Shown here one piece after another: positions 1 to 60,432 of a stretch of 64,000 nucleotides of DNA (positions are counted from its first letter, which is position 1; each line of letters opens with the position of its first letter). Source of the DNA: Promicromonospora soli (GTDB lineage: Bacteria > Actinomycetota > Actinomycetes > Actinomycetales > Cellulomonadaceae); NCBI RefSeq assembly GCF_014653785.1, contig NZ_BNAS01000002.1, forward strand, positions 58,756 to 122,755, read 5' to 3'. The translations under genes were made by a program, and so were the position numbers. The notes under the pieces are model-generated. The model was not told the origin of the DNA. It saw only the letters and a program-made list of their open reading frames with translations, and did not search any database.

Positions 1-29
1 TCGATCAACGGGTTCGGCGGACTACTGGA

Positions 30-1207
<1,178 letters not shown>

Positions 1208-1211
<4 letters not shown>

Positions 1212-2767
1212 GACTGGTTCTCCTGCGTCATGAGTGCCATGAGTCCTTCCTGAGTGGCGGAGTCAACGGAGACCTCGCCAGTGATGCGGCCGAAGGCCAG
1301 CGTGTAGATGCGGTCACAGATGCCGAGGAGCTCGGGGAGCTCCGAGGAGATGACCAGCACGGCCTTCCCTTCGGCAACCAGCTTGTTGATGATGGTGTAG
1401 ATCTCGTACTTCGCACCGACGTCGATGCCGCGGGTCGGCTCGTCGAGGATGAGCACCTCAGGCTTGGTGTTCAGCCACTTCGACAGCACCACCTTCTGCT
1501 GGTTGCCGCCGGACAGCTTGTTGACCTCCACCAGCACGCTAGGGGTGCGGATGTTCATCGACTCGCGGTACTCGCCCGCGACCTTGAGCTCCTCGTGCTC
1601 GTTGACCCAGCCGTTCTTGGCCAGCTTGCCGAGGCTGGCCGCAGAGATGTTGCGGCGGACGTCCTCGATGAGGTTGAGGCCGTAGTGCTTGCGGTCCTCG
1701 GAGACGTACGCGATGCCGGACCGGATCGCGTCCGGCACCGACTTCGGGTCGATCTCCTTGCCGTGCACGTACGCCTTGCCGGAGATGTCGCGGCCGTACG
1801 AGCGGCCGAAGAGGGACATCGCGAGCTCGGTGCGCCCGGCGCCCATGAGACCGGCGATGCCGACGACCTCGCCCGCGCGCACGGTCAGGTTCGCCTTGTC
1901 GACGATGACCCGCCCCTGCTGGGTCGGGTGGTACACGGTCCAGTCCTCCACGCGGAGCACCTCCTCGCCCGGGTGCGAATCGCGCTCGGGGTAGCGGTGC
2001 TCCAGGTCGCGGCCGACCATGCCGCGGATGATCCGGTCCTGCAGGTCCCCCTCCGGGGCCCCGGGGCCGTTCATCTCGATCGTCTCGATGGACTGCCCGT
2101 CGCGGATGATCGTGGTGCGGTCCGCGATCTCGGCGATCTCGCCCAGCTTGTGGGAGATCATGATCGAGGTGATCCCCTGCGCCTGGAACTGCCGGAGCAG
2201 GTCGAGCAGGTGCTCGGAGTCGTTGTCGTTGAGGGCCGCGGTCGGCTCGTCGAGGATGAGCAGGCTCACATCCTTCGAGATCGCCTTGGCGATCTCGATG
2301 AGCTGCTGCTTGCCGACGCCGAGCACGGAGACCGGTACGGTCGGCTCCTCCTTCAGGCCGACGCGCTCCAGCAGCTGGGCCGCCTCCTGGTTGGTGCGGT
2401 TCCAGTCGATGGCGCCGCCGCCCCGCCGACGCTCGTTGCCGAGAAAGATGTTCTCGGCGATCGAAAGGTACGGGACCAGCGCGAGCTCCTGGTGGATGAT
2501 CACCACCCCGCGCGCCTCGGAGTCGTTGATCGACCCGAACTCGGCGTTCTCGCCGTCGAGCACGATGTCGCCCTCGTAGGTGCCGTGCGGGTACACACCC
2601 GAGAGCACCTTCATGAGGGTGGACTTACCCGCCCCGTTCTCGCCGCAGATCGCGTGGATCTCGCCGCGGCGGACGGTGAGGTTGACGTCCTGGAGCGCCT
2701 TGACCCCAGGGAAGGTCTTGGTAATGCCCCGCATCTCGAGGATGTCGGTCGGCGCCGTTTCGGCCAT
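1208..2767 (-). CDS. mmsA: Sugar ABC transporter ATP-binding protein, MmsA/GguA type
   Basis: This 519-residue double-cassette ATPase should power the monosaccharide importer. Cassette 1 has Walker [10 protein letters not shown] and Walker [13 protein letters not shown]. Cassette 2 has a degenerate Walker A (GLMGAGRTE), signature LSGGNQQKV and Walker [15 protein letters not shown]. This asymmetry is typical of the RbsA/XylG/GguA class. I place the start at the ATG at 2767 (MAETAPTD) because AAGGA lies five bases upstream; an ATG or GTG ten codons further out lacks a comparable site. The gene follows chvE after a 162-bp gap containing a strong hairpin, and it overlaps mmsB by four bases. The hairpin would lower its expression relative to the binding protein. 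Confidence 0.93.
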
Positions 2768-2854
2768 GCCAGTCCTTGTCGCGTATTGGTCGCGCACGGA
2801 GGTTCGCGCTTACTTGAAGATGATGCCCGACGCCGGAGCGTGGGGCCCGGGCGA

Positions 2855-2889
2855 GCGCCCCACCCCGGCCTGTGGCTGGGGTGGGGCGC
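2855..2889 (-). terminator. Intra-operon hairpin between chvE and mmsA
   Basis: Arms at 2855-2866 and 2878-2889 form a perfect 12-bp GC-rich stem (GCGCCCCACCCC type) with an 11-base loop. No T run follows on the minus strand. It probably acts as a partial terminator or mRNA-stabilising element that favours synthesis of the binding protein over the ATPase and permease, as is common in binding-protein operons. Confidence 0.7.
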
Positions 2890-2929
2890 CCGTACGGGCT
2901 CGGCGTCGGACCGGGCGTGCTAGGGAGGA

Positions 2930-4087
2930 TCAGCCCGCGTCCTGGCCGGAAGCGACCTCTTCCTCGGTCCAGTAGCCGGTCTCCACAAGGGCTTCGTTGA
3001 TGTTCTCCTTGTAGACGATCACCGAGTCCAGGAGGTACGACGGGACGATGATCTCGCCGTTGTCGTACGACTCGGTGTCGTTCGCCTCGGGCTCCTCACC
3101 GTTCAGGTAAGCCTGGGTGGCGATGACGGCCTGCTCGGCGAGCAGACGCGTGTCCTTGAAGATCGTGGCGTACTGCACGCCGTCGGCGATCATCTTGACC
3201 GACGCGATCTCGGCGTCCTGGCCGCTGACGACCGGCAGCGGCTTGTCGCCCTCGCCGTACCCGGCGTTCTGCAGGGCGGTGATGATGCCGCGCGACAGGC
3301 CGTCGTACGGGGACAGCACGCCGTCCAGGACCTCACCCTGGTTGTACGTCTCGGTCAGCAGGTCCTCCATGCGCTTCTGGGCGGTCTCCTGCTGCCACCG
3401 CAGCGTCGCGGCCTGCTCGATGTCCGTCTGTCCGGACGGGACGACGATCGTGCCGTCGTCGAAGTACGGCTGGAGCACATCCATCGCGCCGTCCCAGAAG
3501 AAGTGCGCGTTGTTGTCGTCCAGCGAGCCGGCGAACAGCTCGACGTTGAACGGGCCCTTGGGCGCGTCCGCGACCTCTTCGCCCTCCGGGCCGACGAGCC
3601 CCAGGCCCGCGAGGACCGACGTGGCCTGCTGCTGCCCGACCTTGAAGTTGTCGAACGACACGTAGAAGTCCACCGTGTCCGAGTCCCGGATCAGGCGGTC
3701 GTACGAGATCACCGGGATGTCGGCTGCCTGGGCGGCGTCGAGCTGCGTGCCCAGCGCCGTGCCGTCGATGGCCGCGATGATCAGGGCGTCCGCGCCGCCG
3801 GTGATCATGTTGTCAACCTGCTGCTGCTGCGTCGGGATGTCGTCGCCCGCGAACTGCAGGTCGACGTCGTACCCGGCTTCCTTGAGGCCCTTCTCGACGG
3901 CGTCGCCGTCGGCGATCCAGCGCTCCGAGGTCTGCGTAGGCATGGCGACGCCCACCATCGGGGTCTCACCCTCGTCGTTGCCTCCGCCGCCACCGGCACC
4001 GCCACCACCGCACGCGGCAAGCGACACGGCCATCGCGCCCGTTGCCAGCGCGGCCAGACCGCGTGTGGCCCACAGCTTCCTTGCCAT
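2930..4087 (-). CDS. chvE: Monosaccharide-binding lipoprotein, ChvE type
   Basis: This 385-residue periplasmic-binding-protein-like lipoprotein should capture sugar at the outer membrane face and deliver it to MmsAB. The N terminus (MARKLWATRG then a hydrophobic stretch ending SLAAC) is a lipoprotein signal with cleavage before Cys. A glycine-rich linker follows, then a type I fold with the start GVAMPTQTSERW and later SGQDAEIASVKMI, typical of ChvE/multiple-monosaccharide binding proteins. The ATG at 4087 is chosen because GAGGAG lies just upstream; ten extra codons are open further out but lack a site. It is the first gene of its operon. Its promoter region contains a class 2 operator. Arabinose is the likely ligand, but this is inferred from context. 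Confidence 0.92.
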   Translation of the reverse strand: MARKLWATRGLAALATGAMAVSLAACGGGGAGGGGGNDEGETPMVGVAMPTQTSERWIADGDAVEKGLKEAGYDVDLQFAGDDIPTQQQQVDNMITGGADALIIAAIDGTALGTQLDAAQAADIPVISYDRLIRDSDTVDFYVSFDNFKVGQQQATSVLAGLGLVGPEGEEVADAPKGPFNVELFAGSLDDNNAHFFWDGAMDVLQPYFDDGTIVVPSGQTDIEQAATLRWQQETAQKRMEDLLTETYNQGEVLDGVLSPYDGLSRGIITALQNAGYGEGDKPLPVVSGQDAEIASVKMIADGVQYATIFKDTRLLAEQAVIATQAYLNGEEPEANDTESYDNGEIIVPSYLLDSVIVYKENINEALVETGYWTEEEVASGQDAG

Positions 4088-4143
4088 GACTTCTCCTCTT
4101 CGAGTTTCTCCGGGCACTTCTCTGCGACCCGGCCGACTACCGA

Positions 4144-4172
4144 TTGTTAACGCTCACACGAGCGTTGGTCAA
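4144..4172 (-). promoter_or_regulatory. Candidate chvE promoter with LacI-type operator in the spacer
   Basis: On the minus strand TTGACC and TAACAA are separated by 17 bases, a good -35/-10 pair (4167-4172 and 4144-4149). The operator TGTTAACGCTCACA (4145-4158, written on the plus strand) covers the -10 and part of the spacer. A perfect 7-4-7 inverted repeat, AACGCTC/GAGCGTT, spans 4149-4166. A bound repressor would block RNA polymerase. The same operator sequence recurs upstream of ytfQ and araB. Confidence 0.65.
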
Positions 4173-4181
4173 AATCGTGTC

Positions 4182-4834
4182 GGGTGAACTCCGCCACGAT
4201 TGATCGGTGACGCTATCACCGTAGTCGCGGTTGAGGAAAAGTAACGACAGGATCTCGGATGGTTACGGCATCGATACCGTCCGGGTCGTGTCAAGGAAGC
4301 CTTGATCCTGGATCCCCCCGGCACACGCCTCCCCGCAGGCCTCCCCGGCGACAGCCCGCCCTGCGAGCACCGCTCGAGGGCAGCAACGCCCCGACCAGCG
4401 GAACTACACAGAGGTAAGGTGCGGTGCCCGATCCGCGCACCGGACCTTGCTCGGCTCCGCGCCGTGGTGGAAAGGGCTTACCAACGCGGCTGCTCAGCCC
4501 GTTACCGGCGACTCTCCAGAGCCCGCAGCACGGCCAGGATCAGGGAAAAGTGTTTCACGTGGCGAGACGTGACACGCGGCACAGTCACGATCTCGGACCG
4601 CAAAAGCGGCAGAACCACCTGAGAAGAACCGGCGGATCTCACCCGCCCCAGCCATGGCGGACGGGGCCGTCGCGTCAACGCCCTAGCGAGATCGTGTCGC
4701 TCCGCGGGTTCGCGCGGATTCTCTTCACCGTTGTAAAAGGCCGGATGGCTTTTGTTGCGAGTACTCGTCGACCTGACAAAAGGGTTCAACGTCGATGATG
4801 GGTAATACGATAGGCAATCCGTTTTAGATGCCAA
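4182..4834. other. Long gap with no recognisable gene
   Basis: About 650 bases between the chvE promoter and the lacI stop codon hold no ORF with coding character. A minus-strand open frame at 4502-4834 is rich in Arg and Ser, lacks a ribosome-binding site and resembles no family I know. An inverted repeat TCACGT-6-ACGTGA lies at 4555-4572. The last 80 bases are AT-richer than the surroundings. The stretch could be long 5' leader, decayed coding DNA or an undetected RNA. Confidence 0.4.
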
Positions 4835-5950
4835 TTACGTAACATTCTGCCGATCACGCGCGGGCGGCCACGCGGACGCCACCACCTCGGTCCCGCCCTC
4901 CTGGACAGCGACCACCCGCTCACGCTCGCCCGGGGCGACGTCGCCCGTCGACTCCCGGCCGATGATCCGCGAGTCGGGCACCACCCTCCGGAACGGCGCC
5001 TGGTCGTCGCCGGCCGCGCCGATGCGCTCCACCATCAGGTCCACGGCGGTGCGCGCGATCTGGTCCCGGCCCGGGTCCACGGAGGACAGGGCGGGGACCG
5101 AGTACTTAGCGTCGTCGACGTCGTCGAACCCGATGAGAGCGACCTCCCGCGGGACGTCGATCCGGTGCGCGTGCAGGGCGTGGAGCGCACCCAGCGCCAG
5201 CGCGTCGTTGAGCGCGAAGACGGCGTCGACCTCCACCCCGTCGTCGAGCATGCGGCTCATCGCCTCGGCGCCCGTGGACCGGTGCCAGAGGCCCGCCTCG
5301 CCGATCAGGGCGGGGTCGTGAGGCAGCCCGGCCTCCGCCAGACCCTCCAGGTAGCCGGTCGTGCGGAGCGCCGCCGACCCGACCTGCTCGCCCGCGTGCG
5401 CCCCGATCAGGGCGATCCGACGGCGGCCGAGCGAAGCCAGGTGCAGCGTCGCCGCCTTGGCCGCGGCCACGTTGTTCATCGTCACGTGGTCGGCGGGCGC
5501 CCCGAACACGCGCTCGCCGAGGATCACCAGCGGGTACTCCACGGTGAACAGGCCGAGGTCGTCGGGCCCAAGGGCCAGCGGCGAGAAGATCAGCCCATCG
5601 GTGAGGTGCCGGCGCCGGCCGGAGAGCACCTCGGTCTCCCGCTCGCGGCTGGCGCTGGTCTGCTCGATGAGCACGGTCCACCCGGCGTCGTCGGCGGCGG
5701 AGATGACGGCGTCGGCCAGCTCCGCGAAGTACGGGAGCGAGAGCTCCGGCACCGCGAGCGTGATCAGGCCGGTGCGGCGCGTGCGGAGGTTCCGGGCGGA
5801 CATGTTGACGCGATAGCCCAGGTCGTCGATCGCCGACTCGACCCGCTGCCGGGTCTCCGCTCGGATGTACGGGTAGCCGTTCACCACGTTCGACACGGTC
5901 TTGATGGACACACCAGCGCGCTGCGCCACATCGTGCATCGTCACGGCCAC
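4835..5950 (-). CDS. LacI-family transcriptional regulator (arabinan regulator paralog 1)
   Basis: This 371-residue repressor should sense a sugar and control the neighbouring hydrolase genes. Residues 5-55 form the LacI helix-turn-helix (recognition region VSIKTVSNVVN). The rest is a periplasmic-binding-like effector domain with conserved stretches DGLIFSPLALG, VFALNDALALGALHAL and VALIGFDDVDDAKYSVPALSSVD. The GTG at 5950 is preceded by GGAGG eight bases away. The gene is divergent from the GH51 gene at 6063, with a class 1 operator in the 112-bp gap. A very similar paralog lies at 27025-28110, sharing the same specificity residues in the recognition helix, so both may bind the same sites. 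Calling it an AraR-like repressor is inference. Confidence 0.9.
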   Translation of the reverse strand: MAVTMHDVAQRAGVSIKTVSNVVNGYPYIRAETRQRVESAIDDLGYRVNMSARNLRTRRTGLITLAVPELSLPYFAELADAVISAADDAGWTVLIEQTSASRERETEVLSGRRRHLTDGLIFSPLALGPDDLGLFTVEYPLVILGERVFGAPADHVTMNNVAAAKAATLHLASLGRRRIALIGAHAGEQVGSAALRTTGYLEGLAEAGLPHDPALIGEAGLWHRSTGAEAMSRMLDDGVEVDAVFALNDALALGALHALHAHRIDVPREVALIGFDDVDDAKYSVPALSSVDPGRDQIARTAVDLMVERIGAAGDDQAPFRRVVPDSRIIGRESTGDVAPGERERVVAVQEGGTEVVASAWPPARDRQNVT

Positions 5951-6025
5951 GCTGCCAGCCTCCGGTTCCGAGTTTTCCCACAGAGTAGAGGACGGCGTCG
6001 CTCCCGCGTCGTCGATCGGATAGTG

Positions 6026-6037
6026 TGCAACGTTGTA
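6026..6037. promoter_or_regulatory. Class 1 operator upstream of GH51 gene
   Basis: TGCAACGTTGTA is a near-palindrome centred on CG, 25 bases before the arabinofuranosidase start. It belongs to the TACATCGNTGTA family seen at five other places in the locus. It lies between the divergent lacI and GH51 genes and could regulate both. Confidence 0.6.
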
Positions 6038-6062
6038 GAGCCCGACCCATCAGCGAGGAACA

Positions 6063-7598
6063 ATGCAGACCTCCCCCGCCCGCGTCCTGTTGCACCCCGA
6101 CTTCACCGTCGGCACCGTCGACCGCCGCCTGTTCGGCTCCTTCGTGGAGCACCTGGGCCGCGCGGTCTACACGGGCATCCACGAACCCGGCCATCCGACG
6201 GCGGACGGCCACGGCTTTCGCCGCGACGTCGCCGACCTGACCCGCGAGCTCGGCGTCACGACGGTCCGGTACCCGGGCGGCAACTTCGTGTCGAACTACC
6301 GGTGGGAGGACGCCGTCGGGCCCGTGGAGCAGCGCAAGCCGTTCCTCGATCTCGCCTGGCGCACCGTTGAGCCCAACGTCGTGGGGACCGACGAGTTCCT
6401 GCAGTGGGCCGAGCGCGAGGGCATCCAGCCGATGATGGCGGTCAACCTCGGCACCCGCGGCGTCGAGGAGGCCGTGGCCCTGCTCGAGTACTGCAACGGC
6501 GAGGCCGGCACCCGCTGGGCCGACCTGCGCATCGCGAACGGCCGCGAGAAGCCGTACGACGTCAAGCTCTGGTGCCTGGGCAACGAGATGGACGGCCCGT
6601 GGCAGGTCGGCCGCAAGGACGCGCACGAGTACGGCAAGCTCGCCCGCAACGCCGGGCGCGCGATGAAGCAGGTGGACCCGTCGATCGAGCTGGTGGCGTG
6701 CGGATCGTCGTCCATGGAGATGCCGACGTTCGGCGAGTGGGAGCGCACCGTCCTGGAGTACACGTACGACCTCGTGGACCACATCTCGATGCACGCCTAC
6801 TACCACGAGGTGGACGGCGACCGCGCGTCGTTCCTCGGGTCGGGCACGGCGATGGACCGGTTCATCGAACGGGTGGCGGCGTCGGCCGACGCCGTGGGCG
6901 CGCAGAGCCGCTCCGACAAGCGCATCACCATCTCGTTCGACGAGTGGAACGTCTGGTACCAGAGCCGCTTCCCGGGCGAGGACAACCTGCCGATCCAGAA
7001 GGACGCGCCGCGCATCATCGAGGACGTCTACTCGGGGCTCGACGCCGTGGTGGTTGGCGACCTCCTGGTCACCCTGCTGAACCACGCCGACCGCGTGCCG
7101 GTCGCCTGCCTCGCCCAGCTCGTCAACGTGATCGCGCCGATCATGACCGAGCCCGGCGGCGAGGCCTGGCGCCAGCCCACGTTCCACCCCTTCGCGACGA
7201 CGGCACGGCTCGCCCAGGGCGACGCGCTCGACCTGCGCGTGTCCGCGCCGACCATCACGACCAAGGCCCACGGCGAGGTGCCTGCAGTGACGGCGGCGGC
7301 CACGCTGGCGGACGGCGCCGTGGCCCTGTTCCTGACGAACCGCTCCGCGGAGCCGGTCGAGGTCGAGGTGGCGCACCTGGGTGCGGCGCTCGAGATCGCC
7401 GAGGGCTGGTCCATGACCGCTGACCACGAGCCCGCCGTCGTCGGGCCCGAGCACGCCGAGAAGGTGACCGCCGAGCACTGGGGCGAGTTCGACGTCGCCG
7501 GGCGCGTGGCCGGCGACGCTGGTGCGTCGAGCACGACGGTGACGCTGCCGCCGGAGTCCTGGACCGCCCTGTCGGGAACCCTCACCTCGCCGAAGTAA
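6063..7598 (+). CDS. abfA: Intracellular alpha-L-arabinofuranosidase, GH51
   Basis: This 511-residue cytoplasmic enzyme removes terminal alpha-L-arabinofuranosyl residues from imported arabino-oligosaccharides. It has no signal peptide. It shows a TIM barrel followed by a C-terminal beta-sandwich, as usual for GH51. The acid/base Glu175 lies in LWCLGNEMDGPWQ and the nucleophile Glu294 in SFDEWNVWY; these numbers equal those of the well-studied Geobacillus AbfA. GAGGA sits three bases before the ATG. The gene is divergent from a LacI regulator, with a class 1 operator 25 bases upstream. A second GH51 of the same type lies at 19983-21494. At the 3' end it runs directly into an intergenic repeat element. 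Confidence 0.96.
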   Translation: MQTSPARVLLHPDFTVGTVDRRLFGSFVEHLGRAVYTGIHEPGHPTADGHGFRRDVADLTRELGVTTVRYPGGNFVSNYRWEDAVGPVEQRKPFLDLAWRTVEPNVVGTDEFLQWAEREGIQPMMAVNLGTRGVEEAVALLEYCNGEAGTRWADLRIANGREKPYDVKLWCLGNEMDGPWQVGRKDAHEYGKLARNAGRAMKQVDPSIELVACGSSSMEMPTFGEWERTVLEYTYDLVDHISMHAYYHEVDGDRASFLGSGTAMDRFIERVAASADAVGAQSRSDKRITISFDEWNVWYQSRFPGEDNLPIQKDAPRIIEDVYSGLDAVVVGDLLVTLLNHADRVPVACLAQLVNVIAPIMTEPGGEAWRQPTFHPFATTARLAQGDALDLRVSAPTITTKAHGEVPAVTAAATLADGAVALFLTNRSAEPVEVEVAHLGAALEIAEGWSMTADHEPAVVGPEHAEKVTAEHWGEFDVAGRVAGDAGASSTTVTLPPESWTALSGTLTSPK

Positions 7599-7601
7599 AA
7601 C

Positions 7602-7755
7602 TCTGGCGAGATAGAACTGTGGCGAGATAGAAGCCCAGCTGGGCTGGGGTATCTATCTCGCCACAGTTCTACTTCGCTGCAGTTCTATCTCGCTGCAGTT
7701 CTATCTCGCTGCAGTTCTATCTCGCTGCAGTTCTATCTCGCTGCAGTTCTAATCC
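7602..7755. repeat. Modular 16-bp palindromic intergenic repeat, copy A
   Basis: Two units of the form GAGATAGAACTGTGGC (7608-7623 and 7624-7639) face six tandem units of the complementary form GCTGCAGTTCTATCTC (7660-7755, the first and last degenerate). The inner inverted repeat forms a hairpin. The element lies in the 175-bp gap between convergent genes and overlaps neither. It may act as a bidirectional terminator. A related element with the same unit fills 30780-30950. Confidence 0.8.
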
Positions 7756-7773
7756 GCCCTACTTCGGCACGGG

Positions 7774-8553
7774 TCAGGTCTTGCTGTCGAAACCGAAGCC
7801 GCCGTCCGCCTCGGCGGCGCGCCAGAAGTCGCGCAGCATCTCCTCCGGGGTGTGGAGATTGTGCCGGCTCGCCACCGGCTCCGCGTCGCCCGAGATGGCC
7901 TTGACCTCGTCGTGGATGCGTTCCATCGAGGTGTCGAGCGACCAGGCGACGTCCGCCGCGAGCTTGAGCGAGTCCGTGAGGTGCCGGGGCACGTCGCCGT
8001 CGTACTTGTAGTAGATCTTGTGCTCGAGGCTGGCCCAGAAGTCCATGGCGATCGTGCGCAGCTGGATCTCGACGATGACGTTCTCGACCCGGTCGGACAG
8101 GAACACCGGGATCTGCACGATGAGGTGCAGCGACTTGTACCCGGTCCCCTTCGGGTGCTTGATGTAGTCCCGCTCCTCCAGGAGCGTCATGTCCGACTGC
8201 TTCAGGATCATGTCGCGGACCAGGTAGATGTCGTTGACGAAGCTGCAGGTGATCCGCACCCCGGCGATGTCGAACATCTGCGCCCGGACGCCCTCCGGCG
8301 TCAGCGGGATGCCCTTGCGCCGGCACTTGGCGACTATCGACTCGAACGACTTGAGCCGCGACCCCACGTGCTCCACGGGGTTGTAGTTCTGCATGTGCCG
8401 GAACTCGTCCCGCAGGATCGAGACCTTGGTCATGACCTCGTCGATCCCGAACTTGTAGGTCAGCACCAGCCGGCGCAGCTCGACCACCAGTGTTCGGAGC
8501 TCGGCAGGATCGGGTATCGGGTGTTCCCGGACGTCCTCGGGGAGCTTGCTCAC
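7774..8553 (-). CDS. Small alarmone synthetase (RelA/SpoT synthetase domain)
   Basis: This 259-residue protein should transfer pyrophosphate from ATP to GDP or GTP to make (p)ppGpp. It carries only the synthetase domain: RLKSFESIVAKCRRKGIP near residues 60-80, the FDIAGVRI motif, then HPKGTGYKSLHLIV and EIQLRTIAMDFWASLEHKIYYK, all diagnostic of RelA_SpoT synthetases of the YjbM/YwaC type. No HD hydrolase, TGS or ACT domain is present. The GTG at 8553 with GGTGG upstream is preferred; the frame stays open through a hairpin repeat to 8685, which is unlikely to be coding. It has no obvious link to arabinose use and may simply sit within the locus. Confidence 0.88.
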   Translation of the reverse strand: MSKLPEDVREHPIPDPAELRTLVVELRRLVLTYKFGIDEVMTKVSILRDEFRHMQNYNPVEHVGSRLKSFESIVAKCRRKGIPLTPEGVRAQMFDIAGVRITCSFVNDIYLVRDMILKQSDMTLLEERDYIKHPKGTGYKSLHLIVQIPVFLSDRVENVIVEIQLRTIAMDFWASLEHKIYYKYDGDVPRHLTDSLKLAADVAWSLDTSMERIHDEVKAISGDAEPVASRHNLHTPEEMLRDFWRAAEADGGFGFDSKT

Positions 8554-8597
8554 AGGACCACCGTACGGGTACGCGGCGGTGCTGGGGGCTGAAAAGG

Positions 8598-8651
8598 CCC
8601 CGCTGGTCGAGCTTGTCGGGACCTGGGTCTCGACAAGCTCGACCAGCGGGG
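8598..8651. repeat. Perfect hairpin repeat with CTGGTCGAGCTTGTCG arms
   Basis: Arms at 8598-8618 and 8631-8651 are perfectly complementary over 21 bases around a 12-base loop. The core CGACAAGCTCGACCAG resembles short palindromic repeats that are abundant in many actinobacterial genomes. It separates the GH43-GH51 gene from the alarmone synthetase and may terminate transcription from the former. A degenerate relative lies at 52344-52383. Confidence 0.7.
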
Positions 8652-8684
8652 GACAAGCCCGACAGCGGGGCCCGCCACTGGCCA

Positions 8685-11600
8685 TCAGCCTGCGTCTGCC
8701 TCCGACAGCCGGAGGAACGTGATCGAGTGGGCCGGGAAGTCGTAGCTGAACCCGGAACCGCCGTCGGACGGCGACACGTCGAGCGTCGTCGGCCCCTCGG
8801 CGGGCACCACCCGTTCGGGCTGGGTCTTGGTGTTCATCGCCGACGGCGCCCCGCTCATCTCGATGACCTCAGCCTCAGGAGCGACCGAGTACCCGTCGAC
8901 CGAGACCGCCGTACGTGCCACGGAGTCGTACGGGTTGACGACCTTGAGCACCAGCTCACCCGTCTCCGCGTCCCGGGTGACCACCTGGTACAGCGACTCG
9001 GTGGTCGGCTCGGTGTACGTCATCTGCAGCGCACCGTCGAGGTAGAGCTTTATGGTCCGCCCGGAGACCACGACCTTCACGTGGTAGTCCCGGCCCGTCT
9101 CCATACGGTGCCCCTCGACGGCCGCGACCTCGTTGGCGGAGCTGTTGTCAGCCCGCTGCAGCGCCTGCCGGCTGTTGTTCCACCCACCGAGGTTCCACCA
9201 GTAGAAGTCGTCCCGGCCGCCGGCGGCGAAGCCGACGAGGAACGCCTCGCTACCGCCCAGCTTCCGGGCGTCGAGCTCCAGGGTGTAGTTGTCCCAGTCC
9301 TTGGTGTAGGCGTCCGTGATGATCGAGCGGGCGTCGGTGACGTTCCCGGCCGACTGCACGTACTCGCCGTTCTGGACACCCCACGTCCCGGCCTGCGGCT
9401 GCCACTGGCCCGCGTCCCCGAACGAGTCGGAGAAGAGCACCTCGCCGGACTCGTTGTCGGTGACCACCACGTCGTCGTACGCGGCCTGGGTGTTCCAGGT
9501 CGAGAGGAAGACGCCACCCGAGATGTTCTCGGGCGCCTCCTCCGGGCCGTCGTGCGTGGACGGGACCACCTGGTCGCCGGTGTTCGTCATGAACATCTTC
9601 TGCGTGTAGTACGACGTCGAGCCCCACGACTGGTCGTTGTCGAACCACATCAGGTCTGGGGACCACTGGACGTAGTCCTCGTTGGCGAACATCGGCGCGT
9701 AGGAGGCGAGCTCCACCACGTCGGCGTTGCGCTCGATACCGGTCATGTACGCGGCCTCGGACAGCGAGTTGGACCAGGCGTTGCCGCGCGAGGCGTACTC
9801 GCCGAGGAACACGTGCGGGCCCTCGCGGTCGTAGGAGTCGTAGCGCTCCGTGTTGCTGAGGAACCACGAGGGGTCGTTGTAGTAGTGCTCGTCGACCATC
9901 TCGACGCCCTGCTCGCGGTTGTACTTCCACAGCTCGTCGAACCGGGCGCCGGCGTCGTCGGGGCCGGTGTTGGAGATCACCGTGACCTCCGGGTGCGCCT
10001 CCTCGACGGCGTCGCGGAACCGCGGGAAGTTGGCCTCGAACGTGCGGGTGTTCTCCTCGTTGCCCAGGCCGATGTACTTCAGGTCGAACGGCTCCGGGTG
10101 CCCCAGCGCTGCGCGCTTCGCGCCCCACTCGGTGTCCACGGACCCGTTGGCGAACTCGATGAGGTCGACGGTGTCCTGCACCCAGCGGTCGATGCGGACG
10201 TCGTCCGTCATCTCGGGGATCCTGCTGCCACAGCCGTTGGCACCCACCGACAGCACGGGCAGCGGCGTCGCCCCCAGGTCCTCGGCGAACTCGAAGTACT
10301 CGAGGTAGCCCAGGCCGTAGGTCTGGTTGTAGCCCCAGAAGTTCCAGTTGGTCGGGCGCTCCTCGACCGGCCCGATGGTCTCCTTCCACTGGTACGTCCG
10401 ACGGCGGTCCGCGCCGTCCGACTCCAGGTACGTGTCGAACGTGCCGACGTTGGTGACGCACCCGCCTGGGAACCGCAGGAAGGACGGGTCCAGCTCAGCG
10501 ACCTTCTCCGCGAGGTCCTTGCGCAGGTCCGACCGCCCGTTGACCGGGCCGACCCACGTGTCGCGCGGGAACAGGGAGACCATGTCGAGGCGCAGCGTGC
10601 CGGCCGCGCCGCCCGTCACCACGAGCCGGGCGTCGTTCGCCGTCCCGCGGGCCGTGAGCTTCGCCGTGTGCTTCTTCCACAGGTCCTCGCCGTTCACCCA
10701 CACCGTGGTGGACGCGTAGGTGGTGCCGCCGTCCGGGGACTCGAGGCTCACCCGGAGCTGCTGTCCCCGGTCGCTGCGCGCGAAGACCGAGAAGTCGTAC
10801 TTCTCGCCCTCCTCGATCGCGAAGCCCTCGTTGTAGCTCGCGTTGCGCACGCCGACGCCGCGGCCGTCGGCCTGGACGGTCAGGTAGGCCCGGTTGGCGT
10901 CGTTGAGCCACTCGCCGCGCTCGGACTGCACCTGGGCGGTGCCCGCGCCTCCGCGCTGCACCACTTCCCAACCCGTCATGCCGGTGAAGTTCCGGTTGTC
11001 CGTGGCCGCGAACTCGAAGGACCGGTTGCGGACCAGCTCGGCGTACAGGCCGCCGTCGGCCGCGTAGTTGATGTCCTCGTAGAAGACGCCGTACAGGTCG
11101 TCGCTCATCTCCGTGCCGGCGGCCGCCGCATCGACGTCGAGCGTGTGCTCCTGGATCGGGGTCTCGGCCGGCGGGTACGCCGCCAGCAGCGCGGCCTTCT
11201 CCTCGGCGGTGATCGGCAGGACCGTCCCGTGCCGGGGGCTGGCCGGCAGGATCGCGTCGAGGTTGGCCGTCCACTTGCCGCTGCTCAGGTCGTCGGACTC
11301 GAAGAGCATGTAGCCCTGGCCGCCGTGGTAGCTCGGCTGGTCCTGCAGCAGGAACCAGCGGTCGTCGGTGAGCGACGGGAACAGCGTTGGCCCCTCGCCG
11401 CCGGTGAACGTGCCGCCCCAGGGGTTGGGCTGCCCGAATCCGACACGCTCGGCGATGAGGTCCCAGCCGTCGCCCTCGGTCACGCCCTGCGTGCGGCGCA
11501 GGTCGGTGGACGACTCCTGCCGCATGCCCATGTACGACTCGTCCTTGGTGAGACGGTAGTAGACGCCGTCCTCCTCCTGGACCGTGGAGTCGATCATGCC

Positions 11601-12302
11601 GAGCCCGTTGCCCTGCGGCTCGTCGATCCACGGCTGCGGCTCCGAGAACGTCTCGAAGTCCGTGGTGGTCGCGTACAGCATGCGCTGGTACGACGTCCGG
11701 ATGTCACGCTCCGCGGGCGGGACGTCGGCCGGGTACAGGGCGGAGGCCCAGTACACGACGAACTCGCCGGCCGCCTCGTCCCAGTACGCCTCGGGCGCCC
11801 ACAGGTTGCCGGCGTTCTCGGGGGCCAGCTCGATCTCGCGCTGTTCGCCCCAGTTCACCAGGTCTGTCGACTCCCAGACCATGAGCGACCGGCTGCCCGT
11901 CTCCTGGGCGTCGCCGAAGTTGCCGCCGCCGTAGATCTGCAGGTCCGTCGCGAGCAGGTAGTACGTGCCGTCGCCGCCGCGGATCAGGAACGGGTCGCGC
12001 AGGCCCTTCGTGCCAAGGTCGGAGCTGAGCACCGGCTTGCCGCCGTTCAGCGTGGTCCACTCCAGCGGGTCCGGTCCGTCCGAGACCGCGAACGAGATGG
12101 TCTCGCCGTCGGCGGTGGACTCGCCCGTGAAGTAGGGGAAGAAGTAGGCGGCGTAGTCGCCGTCCGCAGCGGCGGCCGACGTCGCCCCCACCGCACTGTC
12201 GGACGCCGCGACGGAGACCGCCGCGGTCGGGGCCACGAGCCCCAACGTGAGGGCGCCGGCGAGCAACAGCCGCCGTGATCGCCCTGGTGGGTGCATGTAC
12301 AT
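8685..12302 (-). CDS. Secreted bifunctional GH43-GH51 arabinan-degrading enzyme
   Basis: This 1205-residue exported protein should release arabinose from arabinan or arabinoxylan side chains. A signal peptide (RSRRLLLAGALTLGLVAP then AVSVAAS) covers about residues 8-40. A GH43 five-blade propeller follows to about 365, with the base Asp103 in LRDPF and WAPEAYWDE downstream. From about 390 to the end comes a GH51 enzyme: a CBM4_9-like module at about 420-580, a TIM barrel with acid/base Glu749 (GLGNEEN) and nucleophile Glu835 (FLGEYASRG), a laminin-G-like insert at about 940-1080, and a final beta-sandwich. The ATG at 12302 has GGAG seven bases upstream; another ATG lies two codons in. A class 1 operator covers the start codon. 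The GH43 half resembles the next gene upstream, suggesting duplication. Confidence 0.9.
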   Translation of the reverse strand: MYMHPPGRSRRLLLAGALTLGLVAPTAAVSVAASDSAVGATSAAAADGDYAAYFFPYFTGESTADGETISFAVSDGPDPLEWTTLNGGKPVLSSDLGTKGLRDPFLIRGGDGTYYLLATDLQIYGGGNFGDAQETGSRSLMVWESTDLVNWGEQREIELAPENAGNLWAPEAYWDEAAGEFVVYWASALYPADVPPAERDIRTSYQRMLYATTTDFETFSEPQPWIDEPQGNGLGMIDSTVQEEDGVYYRLTKDESYMGMRQESSTDLRRTQGVTEGDGWDLIAERVGFGQPNPWGGTFTGGEGPTLFPSLTDDRWFLLQDQPSYHGGQGYMLFESDDLSSGKWTANLDAILPASPRHGTVLPITAEEKAALLAAYPPAETPIQEHTLDVDAAAAGTEMSDDLYGVFYEDINYAADGGLYAELVRNRSFEFAATDNRNFTGMTGWEVVQRGGAGTAQVQSERGEWLNDANRAYLTVQADGRGVGVRNASYNEGFAIEEGEKYDFSVFARSDRGQQLRVSLESPDGGTTYASTTVWVNGEDLWKKHTAKLTARGTANDARLVVTGGAAGTLRLDMVSLFPRDTWVGPVNGRSDLRKDLAEKVAELDPSFLRFPGGCVTNVGTFDTYLESDGADRRRTYQWKETIGPVEERPTNWNFWGYNQTYGLGYLEYFEFAEDLGATPLPVLSVGANGCGSRIPEMTDDVRIDRWVQDTVDLIEFANGSVDTEWGAKRAALGHPEPFDLKYIGLGNEENTRTFEANFPRFRDAVEEAHPEVTVISNTGPDDAGARFDELWKYNREQGVEMVDEHYYNDPSWFLSNTERYDSYDREGPHVFLGEYASRGNAWSNSLSEAAYMTGIERNADVVELASYAPMFANEDYVQWSPDLMWFDNDQSWGSTSYYTQKMFMTNTGDQVVPSTHDGPEEAPENISGGVFLSTWNTQAAYDDVVVTDNESGEVLFSDSFGDAGQWQPQAGTWGVQNGEYVQSAGNVTDARSIITDAYTKDWDNYTLELDARKLGGSEAFLVGFAAGGRDDFYWWNLGGWNNSRQALQRADNSSANEVAAVEGHRMETGRDYHVKVVVSGRTIKLYLDGALQMTYTEPTTESLYQVVTRDAETGELVLKVVNPYDSVARTAVSVDGYSVAPEAEVIEMSGAPSAMNTKTQPERVVPAEGPTTLDVSPSDGGSGFSYDFPAHSITFLRLSEADAG

Positions 12303-12309
12303 CGATGTA
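12298..12309. promoter_or_regulatory. Class 1 operator overlapping a start codon
   Basis: TACATCGATGTA is a perfect palindrome, extended to 14 bases (12297-12310). It contains the start codon of the GH43-GH51 gene, and the ribosome-binding GGAG abuts it. A bound repressor here would act as a roadblock, unless transcription starts close by and the message is nearly leaderless. Confidence 0.65.
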
Positions 12310-12371
12310 CTCCTTTGTCATCGGAACGCCCGGCGACATTCGCCGGGCTCGGGCTTCGGAGAGCGGTAGTA

Positions 12372-12411
12372 CCCCGCGCCGACCGGTCATCACTGACCGG
12401 TCGGCGCGGGG
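12372..12411 (-). terminator. Strong hairpin downstream of GH43-CBM13 gene
   Basis: Arms at 12372-12389 and 12394-12411 form a perfect 18-bp stem with a 4-base loop, 18 bases past the stop codon of the gene at 12430. There is no T run. It probably ends that transcript and insulates the GH43-GH51 gene, which has its own operator. Confidence 0.8.
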
Positions 12412-12429
12412 CCTCGTCACGCAGGACGG

Positions 12430-13935
12430 TTACGACGCCGCGTGCAGGATCCACTTCTGGACGGCGTTACCGTTGTCCGTGTACTGGGAGATGCGCGCGC
12501 CGGGTTCCGTGGCGTGGTCGTACAGGTCCAGCGCCTTGCCCGATCTACGGTTCAGGAAAGTCACCGTCCCGTCACTGTTGGTGCGCACCTGGAACTGTTG
12601 GTTGGTTCCTCCGGTACGGGTCCATTGAATGACGTCGGCCCCGTTGGCCGTACTCGCACCCGACACGTCCAGCACGAGCCCCGAGTGCCGTGCCTCGATC
12701 GTGTAGTAGCCGCCACCCGCGTCGGCGAAGCGGAACTGCTGATTGGTGCCGCCCCAGGAGCCCCACTGGGTCAGCCGCGCGCCCGCCGCGGTGGACCGCC
12801 CGGCGATGTCCCACACGAGGCCCGAGTGCGCGGACTCGACCGAGTACCAGGTCCCCGTCTGCAGGGTGTCCGAGCCACCCCACTTCGCGAGCAGCCGGTC
12901 GTACTCGGCCTGGGTGACCGGCAGGACGGTGCCATGCCGCGGGTTGGTGGGCATGTCGTAGTCGGACACCGGGGTCCAGACCCCGGAGGCCAGGTTCGTC
13001 GTCTGGAACGGCACGTACCCCCGGCCGCCGAACTCGTCGATGAACAGGTACCAGCGATCCTCGGTGTTGGACTTGAAGATCGTGGGACCCTCGCCCGCGC
13101 TGACCTGACCCTTTCCGATGCAGTCGGCGATGAAGTCCCAGCTCGTGTCGCGCAGGTCGGTCGCCCGCTCGGCGGTGATGAACTTGCCGCACGGGGAGCT
13201 GCCGGAGTTGGAACGCTCGTCCTTGGTGAGGCGGTAGTACGAGCCGTTGTGCTGCGTCACCGTCGAGTCGATCACCGAGTACCCCGGGTCGACCCAGACC
13301 TGAGCCTGGCTGAACGTGTTGAAGTCACTGGTGGTCGCGTACATCATGCGGTTGTGCGTCGAGCCGGTGTGGTTCGGGTCGCTCTCCGCGTACAGCTTGG
13401 AGGCCCAGAACACGACGAACTCGCCGCGGGCCTCGTCCCAGTACGCCTCGGGCGCCCAGGTGTTACCGGCCGTGGGCGGCGACACCAGCTCCAGCCGCGG
13501 CTGCGACCAGGTCACCAGGTCGCTCGACTCCCACACCACGATGTTCCGCGAGCCGTGCCGCTGGGCGCCGTCCCAGTCCCCGTTGCCGTGAATCTTCAGG
13601 TCGGTGGCGATCTGGTAGAACCGGCCGGTCTCCGGGTTCCGGATGATGAACGGGTCCCGCACACCGCCGGTCCCGACGTTCGAGGTGAGCACCGGCCGGT
13701 TGCCGTTGAGGTCGATGTAGTGCAGCGGGTCGTTGCCGCGGCTCAGGCCGAAGTAGATCTGCTCGCTGTCAGCCGAGCTCTCCCCGGTGAAGTAGGAGAA
13801 CAGGTAGCCGACGTACGGCTCGTCGGCCGCCGAGGCCGCCGGCGCGGTAGCGGTCGCGGCCCCTGTGGCCGCCGCTCCTACGAGCGCCAGCCCCGCGGCT
13901 ATCGCCGCCCACCACCGTGTACGTGGCTTTCTCAT
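12430..13935 (-). CDS. Secreted GH43 arabinofuranosidase with ricin-type (CBM13) domain
   Basis: This 501-residue exported enzyme likely cleaves arabinose from arabinan. A signal peptide (MRKPRTRWWAAIAAGLALVG) is followed by an Ala-rich region. The GH43 propeller spans about 40-350, with base Asp94 in VRDPF and the WAPEAYWDEARGEF motif, both shared with the N-terminal half of the neighbouring GH43-GH51 protein. The C-terminal 130 residues form a ricin-type beta-trefoil with three repeats ending NQQF or QKW, a carbohydrate-binding module. The ATG at 13935 is preferred because GGAGGA lies six bases upstream; further upstream starts have no good site. A class 1 operator lies 63 bases before the start. 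The substrate is inferred from context and similarity. Confidence 0.9.
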   Translation of the reverse strand: MRKPRTRWWAAIAAGLALVGAAATGAATATAPAASAADEPYVGYLFSYFTGESSADSEQIYFGLSRGNDPLHYIDLNGNRPVLTSNVGTGGVRDPFIIRNPETGRFYQIATDLKIHGNGDWDGAQRHGSRNIVVWESSDLVTWSQPRLELVSPPTAGNTWAPEAYWDEARGEFVVFWASKLYAESDPNHTGSTHNRMMYATTSDFNTFSQAQVWVDPGYSVIDSTVTQHNGSYYRLTKDERSNSGSSPCGKFITAERATDLRDTSWDFIADCIGKGQVSAGEGPTIFKSNTEDRWYLFIDEFGGRGYVPFQTTNLASGVWTPVSDYDMPTNPRHGTVLPVTQAEYDRLLAKWGGSDTLQTGTWYSVESAHSGLVWDIAGRSTAAGARLTQWGSWGGTNQQFRFADAGGGYYTIEARHSGLVLDVSGASTANGADVIQWTRTGGTNQQFQVRTNSDGTVTFLNRRSGKALDLYDHATEPGARISQYTDNGNAVQKWILHAAS

Positions 13936-13997
13936 GGTCATTCCTCCGTCACGTCGTTGTGCCAGCAATTCGGCCCGTCGGGAGCCAACAGGATCGT

Positions 13998-14009
13998 TCA
14001 TCGTTGTAC
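13998..14009. promoter_or_regulatory. Class 1 operator upstream of GH43-CBM13 gene
   Basis: TTCATCGTTGTA matches the class 1 consensus TACATCGNTGTA with one change. It lies 63 bases before the chosen start and after the terminator of the upstream transporter operon, where a promoter is expected. Confidence 0.55.
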
Positions 14010-14047
14010 TGCGATTCACGTCTTTGTGGAATGGTCGCGGGCGGTAT

Positions 14048-14092
14048 CACGGCCCTGACTCGGCGCACCGAAAACACCGAGTCAGGGCCGTG
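14048..14092 (-). terminator. Terminator of the ytfQRT-yjfF operon
   Basis: Arms at 14048-14063 and 14077-14092 form a perfect 16-bp stem (core GGCCCTGACTCGG) with a 13-base loop, eight bases after the yjfF stop codon. It should end the transporter transcript. Confidence 0.8.
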
Positions 14093-14099
14093 GGTCCGG

Positions 14100-17682: not shown

Positions 17683-17760
17683 CCTCGACCTTCTGTCTGG
17701 CGTGCTGCGGCACCGAGGTGGAGCACCGGCTGGCCGGCGCTCCACCTCAGCGACGATCGG

Positions 17761-18768: not shown

Positions 18769-18833
18769 GTCTCCTCCTTGAGAGCCCGCGCGACGTCGTG
18801 CGGGTTACGTGCGGCGAAATTGCCCGCCTCGAA

Positions 18834-18847
18834 TGTTAGCGCTCACA
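18834..18847. promoter_or_regulatory. Class 2 operator upstream of ytfQ
   Basis: TGTTAGCGCTCACA is a LacI-type site differing from the chvE and araB sites at one base. On the minus strand its end supplies TAACAT, a possible -10. Repression by a LacI protein is inferred. Confidence 0.65.
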
Positions 18848-18942
18848 TGGCCGAGTCCATAGCCACCCAAGTCACATTCTAGTAACGAGTCAGGCGCGAT
18901 TCCTCTAATAGAGGAACATTCGGATTTGTGTGACGAAGTGAC

Positions 18943-29602: not shown

Positions 29603-29606
29603 CCTG

Positions 29607-29669: not shown

Positions 29670-29673
29670 GGCC

Positions 29674-30089: not shown

Positions 30090-30776
30090 ATGGACCTCAG
30101 CCTCGCCGAGGAGTACCTGCTCCTCGCGCTCGACGACACGTCGGGCAAGCCGCTGCTCAGCTCGCAGTACCTGCAGTTCGCCCTGGCCGGAGCGTCGGTC
30201 GCCGACCTCACCCTGCACGGTGCGCTCGAGGTGTCCGACGGCGCCGACGGCGGACGGAAGGGCCGGTTCCACGTGACCGGCCGCGCGACGCCGTCGGACC
30301 CGCTGCAGCGCGAGGTGCTCGACCTGATGCACGACCGCAAGCCCAAGGACGCGATCCGGAAGGTGGGGCAGGGCAGCTTTGCCAGGAGGCTTCGCGACTC
30401 GCTGCAACAGGGCCTGGCCGCCCGGGGTGTGCTGCGCGAGGAGCAGGTCAAGATCCTGGGGCTCTTCCCCAGCACCACATGGACGGCGCACGACCCGGCG
30501 CCGGAGGCCGCCGTCCGCAAGCGCGTGCTGGCCGCCCTGACCGGGCGCGCGGACGCGGACGAGCGGACGGCGGCCCTGGTCTCGCTCCTGCTCGCGACCG
30601 ACCTGACCCGCAAGATCTATCCCGACCAGGACCGTCGTGCGCTGAAGCGCCGCGCGAAGGAGATCGCCGAGTCCGAGTGGGCAGGCGCCGCGGTGAAGCG
30701 CGCGATCGACGACGTCAACGCGGCGATGATCGCGGCAACCGTGGCGGCGACGGGCGCAGCCACAGCAGGCAGCTGA
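30090..30776 (+). CDS. GPP34 (GOLPH3-like) family protein
   Basis: This 228-residue protein starts MDLSLAEEYLLLALDDTSGK, the typical opening of bacterial GPP34 proteins, and continues with LAGASVADLTLHGALEV and a helical C-terminal half rich in charged residues. In eukaryotes GOLPH3 binds phosphoinositide; the bacterial role is unknown. AAGGAG lies before the ATG. The gene is convergent with araA, and the palindromic repeat begins three bases after its stop codon. It may be unrelated to sugar metabolism. Confidence 0.85.
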   Translation: MDLSLAEEYLLLALDDTSGKPLLSSQYLQFALAGASVADLTLHGALEVSDGADGGRKGRFHVTGRATPSDPLQREVLDLMHDRKPKDAIRKVGQGSFARRLRDSLQQGLAARGVLREEQVKILGLFPSTTWTAHDPAPEAAVRKRVLAALTGRADADERTAALVSLLLATDLTRKIYPDQDRRALKRRAKEIAESEWAGAAVKRAIDDVNAAMIAATVAATGAATAGS

Positions 30777-30779
30777 CCC

Positions 30780-30950
30780 GACCCTGCTCTGCCGAGGTAG
30801 AACCAGGGCGAGATAGAACCAGGCCGAGATAGAACCAGGCCGATAGAACCGCAGCGAAGTAGGGCTGGAGCGCACCCTTCAGGGGTTCGCTCCAGCCCTA
30901 CTTCGCTGCGGTTCTATCTCGCCACGGTTCTACCTCGGCAGAGCAGGGTC
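30780..30950. repeat. Modular 16-bp palindromic intergenic repeat, copy B
   Basis: The outer arms (30780-30804 and 30926-30950) are perfectly complementary over 25 bases. The inner part (GATAGAACCGCAGCGAAGTA and its complement) makes a long central hairpin. On the left the unit GAGATAGAACCAGGCC recurs with about 16-bp spacing. The unit is the same as in the element at 7602-7755. The repeat fills the whole gap between the convergent GPP34 and araA genes and its last base overlaps the araA stop codon. Confidence 0.85.
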
Positions 30951-32463
30951 AGAGGCCCTGGGCCAGGCGGTAGTACGCCTGGTTGTGGCGGACCTGGTCG
31001 GCGAAGCCGCGACGCGTCGTGTCCTCGTCGATGACGAGGAGCTCGGTGCGCGCGATGTTCGCGAAGACCTCGAACGCCTCGATGCCCGCTGCGGTCGACA
31101 TGACCGTGTGGTGGGCGCCGCCCGCCGTGAGCCACGACTCGGCGGAGATCTCGAACGACGGCCGCGGCTTCCACATCGCGCGGGCGACCGGCAGCTTCGG
31201 CAGGTCGCGCGGCGGGGTGACGACGTCGACCACGTTGGCGGTCAGGCGGAACCGGTCCCGCATGTCCGCGAGCGAGACGACGACGGCGCCCTCCACGGCG
31301 TCGGCCGAGAACACCATGCGCACCGGGTCCTCCTTGCCGCCGATGCCGAGCGGGTGGATCTCGATCCGCGGCTTCGAGGTGGTCAGCGAGGGGCAGACCT
31401 CCAGCATGTGCGCGCCGAGGATCAGCTCGGAGCCCGGGGTGAGGTCGTAGGTGTAGTCCTCCATGAGGCTCGCGCCCCCGGGGAGGCCGAGCCCCATCAC
31501 CTTGGCCGCCCGCACGAGCACCGCCGTCTTCCAGTCGCCCTCGGCGCCGAAGCCGTAGCCCTTCTCCATGAGGCGCTGGACCGCCAGGCCGGGGAGCTGG
31601 CGCAGGGCGCCCAGGTCCTCGAAGTTGGTGGTGAACGCCTTGGCGCCGGCCGCCTCCAGGAACCCGAGCAGCGCGATCTCCTGGCGCGCGGCGTAGCGCA
31701 GGGAGTCGTGCCGGTCGCCGCCGTCCCGCAGCTCGGGAGCGACGTCGTACTTCTCCTCGTACTCCGCGACCACCTTGTCGATGGCGGCCTCCTCGACGGC
31801 GTCCACCGCCGCGACCAGGTCGTTCACGCCGTGCGTGTTCACCGAGACGCCGAACCGCAGCTCGGCCTCCGTCTTGTCGCCCTCGGTGACTGCCACGTTG
31901 CGCATGTTGTCGCCGAACCGCACCAGCTTGAGCTCGTGCGTCGCCGCCCAGCCGGCCGCGCCGCGCACCCAGGTGCCCACCCGGCGCGTGACAGCCGGGT
32001 TGGAGACGTGCCCCACCACCGTCGTCCGCGCGACGCCGAGCCGCGTGGCGATGTACGCGTACTCGCGGTCGCCGTGCGCGGCCTGGTTGAGGTTCATGAA
32101 GTCCATGTCGATGTCGTCCCAGGGGAGCTCGACATTCGCCTGCGTGTGCAGGTGCAGCAGCGGCTTGCGCAGCGCGTCCAGGCCCGCGATCCACATCTTC
32201 GCGGGGCTGAAGGTGTGCATCCACGTGACGACACCCAGCACCTTGTCGTCGCCGTTCGCGTCCAGCATGGCGCGGCGGATCGCAGGCGAGTCCTTGAGGA
32301 CGGGCTTCCACACCACCTTGACCGGCACGTCCGACGACGCGTCCAGCGCGCGGGCGACCTCCTGGGACTGCTCCGCGACCTGGGCCAGGGTCTCCTCGCC
32401 GTAGAGGTCCTGGCTCCCGGTGAGGAACCAGACCTCACGGTCCGCGTAGGGCTTGGTGCTCAT
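30949..32463 (-). CDS. araA: L-arabinose isomerase
   Basis: This 504-residue enzyme converts L-arabinose to L-ribulose in the cytoplasm, the first step of the pathway. The sequence matches AraA throughout: [16 protein letters not shown] at the N terminus, [72 protein letters not shown] and the C-terminal [13 protein letters not shown]. The length is typical. GGAAGGA precedes the ATG, which overlaps the araD stop by four bases. It is the last gene of araB-araD-araA, and its stop codon abuts a long palindromic element that likely ends transcription. Confidence 0.98.
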
Positions 32464-60362: not shown

Positions 60363-60369
60363 CTTCGGT

Positions 60370-60419: not shown

Positions 60420-60432
60420 TCCGAACAGGTTT

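Follow-up and report, generated by a model that had tools for sequence, protein, structure and literature searches.

The window analysed in this study, a stretch of 64,000 nucleotides from Promicromonospora soli, contains two elements, A and B, of a repeat family that we refer to as F1 (Table 1). Element A is located between a gene for an alpha-L-arabinofuranosidase and a RelA/SpoT-domain gene that converges onto it, while element B is flanked by a gene of the GPP34 family and a gene for L-arabinose isomerase. Both elements are built from the same module and have the same architecture.

Table 1. Window coordinates of the F1 elements, their parts and the flanking genes.
Feature	Position	Strand	Details
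Alpha-L-arabinofuranosidase gene, upstream of element A	6063..7598	+	PF06964, E 2e-36
Element A, F1 hairpin between convergent genes	7589..7768	.	Sequence, TRF arrays, fold
Left arm of element A, three modules (cores 7591-7601, 7607-7617, 7623-7633)	7591..7633	-	Sequence
Apex of hairpin A	7634..7649	.	Sequence, fold
Right arm of element A, seven modules in 16-bp steps (cores from 7650, 7666, 7682, 7698, 7714, 7730 and 7746)	7650..7756	+	
RelA/SpoT-domain gene, convergent onto element A	7774..8553	-	PF04607, E 1.3e-32
GPP34 family gene, left of element B	30090..30776	+	PF05719, E 5.8e-55
Element B, F1 family	30781..30949	.	Outer arms 30781-30792 and 30938-30949; exact cores 30793-30937
L-arabinose isomerase gene, right of element B	30949..32463	-	PF02610, E 1.1e-78

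The repeat at 7589-7768, which spans about 180 bp, is genuine. In the 64-kb window, GCTGCAGTTCTATCTC was matched 10 times with at most three mismatches, as compared to 0.14 matches expected, and none of 100 shuffled sequences reached 10, which rules out chance. A period-16 array of 6.2 copies with 92% matches was identified by TRF at 7652-7751, and a second one of 2.1 copies at 7599-7632. The F1 module is 16 bp long and contains an 11-nt core, which reads GTTCTAYYTCG in the right arm and CGARRTAGAAC in the left arm. The original prediction of a 16-bp modular repeat in a gap between convergent genes was thus confirmed by the motif count against shuffles, the TRF arrays and the gene calls, as was the use of the same module near 30780 by sequence, motif matches and TRF, and its description of the layout as non-coding and palindromic is supported. 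The module numbers and the extent had to be revised. Instead of six direct copies, the right arm has approximately seven modules (by eye), with four exact copies of GCTGCAGTTCTATCTC at 7676-7739, a fifth copy with three mismatches, and degenerate modules flanking the exact copies on both sides. The left arm has three modules rather than two, and the extent, given as 7602-7755, was corrected to about 7589-7768, with a left edge that overlaps the last codons and the stop of the upstream gene.

Five of the right-arm cores of element A are exact, while the first and the last are degenerate and followed by a remnant that extends to 7768; the first and third cores of the left arm are off by one base each. 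The arabinofuranosidase gene ends in the outermost left module (7591-7601), which contains its final codons CCG AAG TAA, stop included. With one exact core on the left and five on the right, element A is the most lopsided of the 40 two-armed elements examined in the P. soli genome. The segment 7584-7776 has a predicted folding energy of -99.8 kcal/mol (z -10.4), equalled by none of 200 shuffles, and the corresponding z value for element B is -15.7 (30 shuffles). Searches of 72,556 plasmid records and 50,697 phage records gave no match to 7584-7770 (187 bp), and a plasmid or phage origin of element A was therefore dropped. The absence of a named family, as originally stated, also held: a scan of the window against Rfam at the gathering threshold gave no matches, and F1 was nowhere described in a literature search that had subscription journals mostly outside its scope.

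We analyzed the position of the elements relative to genes in 40 stretches of the P. soli genome, chosen around the core matches listed, plus the window, which together contain 48 core clusters; genes were called with a codon-usage caller trained on Promicromonospora. The 42 elements with at least two exact cores are distributed over convergent (29) and same-direction (13) gene pairs, and no divergent pair and no gene interior contains one, while five of the six single-core matches are convergent and one is located inside a gene. A multi-core element is present in 27 of the 44 convergent gaps of at least 60 bp, as compared to 13 of 160 other gaps in these stretches (p 6e-13), namely in 13 of 108 same-direction gaps and none of 52 divergent gaps. 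The elements start at most 30 bp past the upstream stop in 13/13 same-direction pairs, and the median distance from the stop to the outermost core is 10 bp at the 58 ends of convergent pairs. Another 93 clusters were obtained from 92 stretches, among the matches listed, of five further genomes, panici, thailandica, sukumoe, iranensis and sp. AC04 (hereafter the named set), of which 65 are convergent, 24 same-direction, four at an edge and none divergent; the occupancy rate means little here because the stretches were selected for a tandem element, while the orientation is still informative. At convergent gene ends, the TAG of a module serves as the gene's own stop codon in 9 of 58 cases in P. 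soli and in 31 of 130 cases in the named set.

The arrangement of exact cores, inverted in the left arm and direct in the right arm, was observed in 90 of 95 clusters, the remaining five being one-armed. All 40 two-armed P. soli elements fold better than shuffles, with z values from -5.7 to -24.9 (30 shuffles each), and the arms pair over at least 30 bp; one element in P. soli has 47 pairs, 45 of them in a single run. Covariation was examined in 23 symmetric elements, consisting of 13 of 17 from P. soli, from which four with extra degenerate modules were excluded after inspection, and 10 of 10 from the named genomes; part of the centre reads N in two other P. soli elements of this set. Across 31 tested pairs, 96.5% of the cells are paired, and pairing falls to 33-42% when the partner is shifted by 1-3 columns. 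In 64 cells both partners have changed, as compared to 22 in shuffles. Two of the five covariation measures gave no clear excess over shuffles: pairs changed on both sides (11 versus 8.9, with 11 or more reached in 45 of 500 shuffles) and further pair types (21 versus 21.0, with 21 or more reached in 314 of 500).

Two layers can be distinguished in these stems, in that the RR pair and the spacers drift with compensation and 16 of the 31 pairs are invariant. Among 140 spacer pairs, taken where the spacing is exactly 16 bp in the left as well as the right arm, 41% are identical between the arms, as compared to 12% after shuffling (93 of 95 clusters, since both arms are required). The invariance suggests that something reads the fixed core. 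It could alternatively reflect recent descent within the genus, but the same core is found with other spacers in other genera, which argues for constraint or repeated re-amplification. Compensation between the arms could also arise by template switching without selection, which is where the structural argument is weakest.

A GC-rich hairpin at the gene 3' end, as in a canonical intrinsic terminator, is present, while the canonical U-tract is absent: the longest T-run after the hairpin is 0-2 in 79 of 80 tails in P. soli. A standard terminator scan of positions 1-20000 reported solely a short minus-strand stem within element A. From background values for RNA-DNA hybrid energies, the hybrid over the right-arm core has a mean of -7.7 kcal/mol, as compared to -14.3 for the genome, with 0.12% of the windows being weaker, while the hybrid over the left-arm core has -10.9, with 6% of the windows weaker. 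Part of the weak-hybrid argument comes from the core being AT-rich while the genome is GC-rich. As judged by eye, the other hairpin families that occupy the same gaps have no comparable asymmetry between their arms.

We compared the abundance of the core across 13 Promicromonospora genomes, numbered from G000 (P. soli, the genome of the window). The core was identified 218 times in P. soli (112 forward, 106 reverse), against 0 and 3 matches for a reversed-pattern control, and it is present in all 13 genomes with 9-466 copies each, where the reversed control gave 1-6 matches in every one. The highest counts were obtained for G005 (466), G011 (292) and P. soli, followed by G009 (126), G006 (99), G010 (82) and G002 (38), while the other six have 9-20 cores each, barely over background. 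The module is common elsewhere, with one of 48 core clusters in the examined stretches, a single-core match, lying in a gene; it is neither unique to this locus nor randomly scattered in genes.

Most of 198 genomes of the family have about 5-15 core matches, and high counts were also found in other genera, such as 331 in G125, 272 in G118, 129 in G139 and 125 in G170. The strict 16-bp tandem was found in none of eight enriched genomes from other genera and in one of 396 sampled genomes of the order, which is P. soli itself, the sole member of its genus sampled. Measured on the same strand with one mismatch allowed, 124 of 127 core-to-core distances in P. soli and 381 of 389 in the named stretches are 16 bp, as compared to 21 bp in 110 of 123 distances in G125, 20 bp in 6/6 in G139, and 19 bp in 5/5 in G171 and 2/2 in G166. 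These distances explain why the strict 16-bp tandem was not found in the genomes sampled from other genera, where the cores are spaced at 19-21 bp. The core is common to several genera and the period looks like a genus trait, with few distances beyond G125 and Promicromonospora.

In G125, the elements are located a median of 91 bp from the stops in convergent gaps, and convergent gaps are less strongly preferred (8 of 11 gaps versus 11 of 35, p 0.03). Distinct matches were found between divergent genes in G117 (2/5) and G139 (2/6) and inside genes in G166 (3/7), G170 (2/5) and G171 (4/7), and these may be background single cores; gene contexts in the other genera are rough since the caller was trained on Promicromonospora. 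A replichore polarity in G125, with all cores on one strand at 0.56-2.5 Mb, was considered and dropped, as minus-strand matches to a sub-pattern of the core occur in that stretch. In the genus of G125 (stretches L237-L256, e.g., L251 at about 2560-2900), arms of 21-bp modules with the F1 core enclose 188-636 bp. Thirteen of 14 such interiors in G125 share 14-mers with a second hairpin family (GGTGGTGGTGCCGCGTC / GACGCGGCACCACCACC), so that these elements look nested.

Whole elements appear to have been copied between loci. Two P. soli elements on different contigs (L220 and L228) share 95.5% identity, which extends through a palindromic centre of 34 nt, and have unrelated flanks, with the identity ending at gc|CGA and TCG|gc; such near-identical copies at unrelated loci with sharp boundaries point to copying of the complete element. 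They differ at four bases, two per arm, with pairing preserved. One type of centre is common to nine elements from P. soli and the named species, among which one pair has shared flanks. Inspection by eye next to near-identical copies revealed no target-site duplication. The Y1/RAYT transposase gene (PF01797), for which the original prediction had proposed a search, was detected in none of the 13 genus genomes, while the control gave matches in 5 of 14 genomes, and mobilisation by RAYT was therefore rejected; an ancient RAYT gene may since have been lost.

We also compared the sequences that occupy the two gaps in the sister species. The gap of element A could be compared in 11 of the 13 genomes and contains F1 in four of them (G000, G009, G006, G011), with different module numbers, and dispersed hairpins unrelated to F1 in the rest: F2 in G005, G012 and G002, F3 in G010 and, by eye, G003, and F4 in G004 and G007. 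The gap of element B, for which G005 and G006 were not comparable, is occupied by F1 in G000, by a variant 16-bp module in G001, by F3 in three further genomes and by F5 in four; it consists of 35 bp without F1 or the variant module in G011, and the genes abut in G008. The labels F2-F5 refer to patterns that were written after the gap sequences had been read, and F6, F7 and some assignments, including that of G003 and several F4-like gaps, were made by eye; an unsupervised clustering of gaps by shared 12-mers was discarded as it chained 251 of 460 gaps. Since sister species hold other hairpin families at the same gap, what is kept seems to be a strong 3'-end hairpin and not one particular sequence. 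The variant module in G001 (CGAGGTAGTCACAGGG, stretch L145, in the gap orthologous to window 30777-30948) forms the same type of hairpin, and as F1 cores are few in that genome, the core pattern may undercount a wider family.

Several known systems resemble F1 in part. REP elements are described in the accessible text of two studies (PMC3733652, PMC1525189) as extragenic palindromes downstream of genes, between convergent or same-direction ORFs. F1 is similar to these REP/BIME elements in being dispersed, abundant in some species but not in relatives, and located at gene ends, and the 218 cores in the P. soli genome, with palindromic elements at gene ends, amount to many dispersed extragenic palindromic copies. 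F1 differs in having tandem 16-bp modules in both arms and long paired stems. Whereas the stem of a REP element is tagged by GTAG at its foot, F1 ends in GCCGARRTAG ... CTAYYTCGGC, with GTAG or ATAG inside the stem in both arms, and whereas the REP class is linked to RAYT, the genus that carries F1 has no Y1/RAYT gene in 13 genomes. F1 thus appears, from its sequence, to be REP-like in behaviour, with elements that seem to be copied between loci, yet not a GTAG/RAYT REP. Of the original proposal of a bidirectional terminator or REP-like element, the dispersal and the location at gene 3' ends, mostly in convergent gaps, stood, while the link to RAYT did not.

The uptake-sequence terminators of Neisseria and Pasteurellaceae also have a short core in inverted pairs that form tail-to-tail hairpins, according to the accessible part of PMC1852404, but in F1 the core is confined to gene ends, with fewer copies and several modules per arm. 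In Streptomyces, low-U intrinsic terminators (PMC12207403, accessible text) share with F1 long, very stable and covarying stems with few Us; F1 differs in that its hairpins are mostly copies of one family and lie nearer the stop, and dispersed families are not described in that text. Families of bacterial stem-loop repeats with a shared secondary structure, some of them suggested to be terminators (PMC2267715), resemble F1 as well, and the words Actinobacteria, tandem and convergent are absent from the accessible text of that study.

The reading that we favour, with somewhat better than even confidence, is that F1 elements are lineage-specific dispersed hairpins that form transcript 3' ends on both strands. 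Because the T-tract is missing, the term terminator relies on position and structure, by which F1 would probably act as a bidirectional terminator. A polymerase arriving from either side would first transcribe the arm rich in purines, CGARRTAGAAC, which contains TAG stops; the apex would follow, and the U-containing arm GTTCTAYYTCG would come last. In this last arm, every module would provide one unusually weak stretch of RNA-DNA hybrid, and with the hairpin closing behind it the polymerase may then be released without a classical U-tract, leaving a protected 3' end behind and shielding each gene from antisense transcription coming from its neighbour. The arms are envisaged to grow and shrink in 16-bp steps. 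On the simplest account, strong hairpins would be favoured at the convergent gene ends of the genus, supplied by several copyable hairpin lineages of which F1 may be one.

Two-way termination is the likely role, and the nearest alternative is that the hairpins protect 3' ends against 3'-to-5' exonucleases while transcription is terminated at another point, e.g., through Rho. Long stems, with as many as 47 pairs and no T-tract, would suit this, and REP hairpins are reported as mRNA stabilisers in the accessible text of PMC12306157, but any gene end could use protection, and the preference for convergent gaps (27 of 44) over same-direction gaps (13 of 108) better suits termination in both directions; we regard protection as quite unlikely to be the explanation. 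The elements could also be selfish palindromes of the REP/MITE type that survive at gene ends because they are harmless there, with incidental effects on transcripts. Bursts that differ up to 50-fold among species, whole-element copies at unrelated loci, and the overlap with the gene's stop at 9/58 and 31/130 convergent ends are consistent with this. Harmlessness alone fails, however, to explain the 0/52 divergent gaps and the median stop distance of 10 bp; moreover, the same gap in sister species is filled by other hairpin families instead of being left empty, and neither a Y1 transposase (13 genomes) nor, by eye, a target duplication was found, so that a purely selfish nature is unlikely, though not implausible.

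An array of protein sites at the DNA level, such as a roadblock or a nucleoid protein with the fixed core as its site, would account for the 16 of 31 invariant pairs next to spacers that drift with compensation, and for the recurrence of the core at other periods in other genera; since a DNA site requires neither pairing of the arms nor a fixed arm orientation, both of which are present, we consider it very unlikely. The highly improbable notion of a translation-stop cassette, in which 16-bp steps place TAG in successive frames of the incoming gene, is in line with left arms that have stops in two to three frames in 72 of 80 cases in P. soli (controls 14/240) and 152 of 176 in the named set (controls 75/528), and with TAG as the gene stop, in the named genomes, at 44 of 148 ends near elements versus 65 of 455. 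The frame pattern is nevertheless an arithmetic consequence of a 16-mer that bears TAG, and the use of TAG near elements in P. soli is 16/70 versus 50/278. Frame-cycling stops as a reason for the 16-bp period hold in Promicromonospora and fail at the 21-bp period of G125, which keeps one frame, and were set aside as a weak rival. That F1 represents DNA uptake sequences doubling as terminators, as in Neisseria and Pasteurellaceae, where a short fixed core also forms inverted pairs at tail-to-tail genes (PMC1852404, accessible part), is almost certainly incorrect: uptake cores occur in and between genes, generally in 1,000 or more copies according to that text, as compared to 9-466 copies of an F1 core that is nearly absent from genes (1/48 clusters) and forms tandem 16-bp arrays.

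For hairpins that form transcript 3' ends on both strands, a broader scheme is conceivable, to which we assign less than even confidence. The convergent-end hairpins of the genus may behave as mobile, competing families, with several unrelated lineages that burst in different species and replace each other at the same gene ends. A dedicated agent may read the F1 core, for copying or termination, and may have persisted in several genera as the module period changed among 16, 19, 20 and 21 bp. How transcripts end without U-tracts in GC-rich actinobacteria is unsettled, and terminators are usually seen as local and vertically inherited. With different dispersed hairpin families at one gene-end position in sister species, the turnover of terminators by copying could become directly measurable, and the way in which paired spacers drift around a core that hardly varies predicts the bases that may be read by the polymerase, a protein or a mobilising enzyme.

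Among the other families, F4 (GTCAGACGNNCAGGTC) is also dispersed, with 263 copies in G009, 101 in G007, 91 in G010, 46 in G005, 21 in G011, 14 each in G000, G006 and G012, 8 in G008, 6 in G002, 5 in G003, none in G001 and at most one per genome outside the genus; these counts were obtained with a stricter pattern, as the first F4 pattern was loose and also labelled the window gap 29603-29673, which is F2. As in F1, the F4 core has a variable dinucleotide within an otherwise fixed core. The F2 hairpin in the window (TTGTGGGCGCGATCGTTGCG..., 29603-29673) is located between a GH43 gene and an acylphosphatase gene, and F2 is also found in convergent gaps of G002, G005, G006 and G012. A further hairpin with a T-richer tail was identified at 60363-60488 (CCCCGGCCGGG...CCCGGCCGGGG followed by ATCTCTTTTTGT) and, unlike the hairpins in the gaps with turnover, it is kept in the orthologous gap of 10/10 genomes compared (two gene-pair keys).
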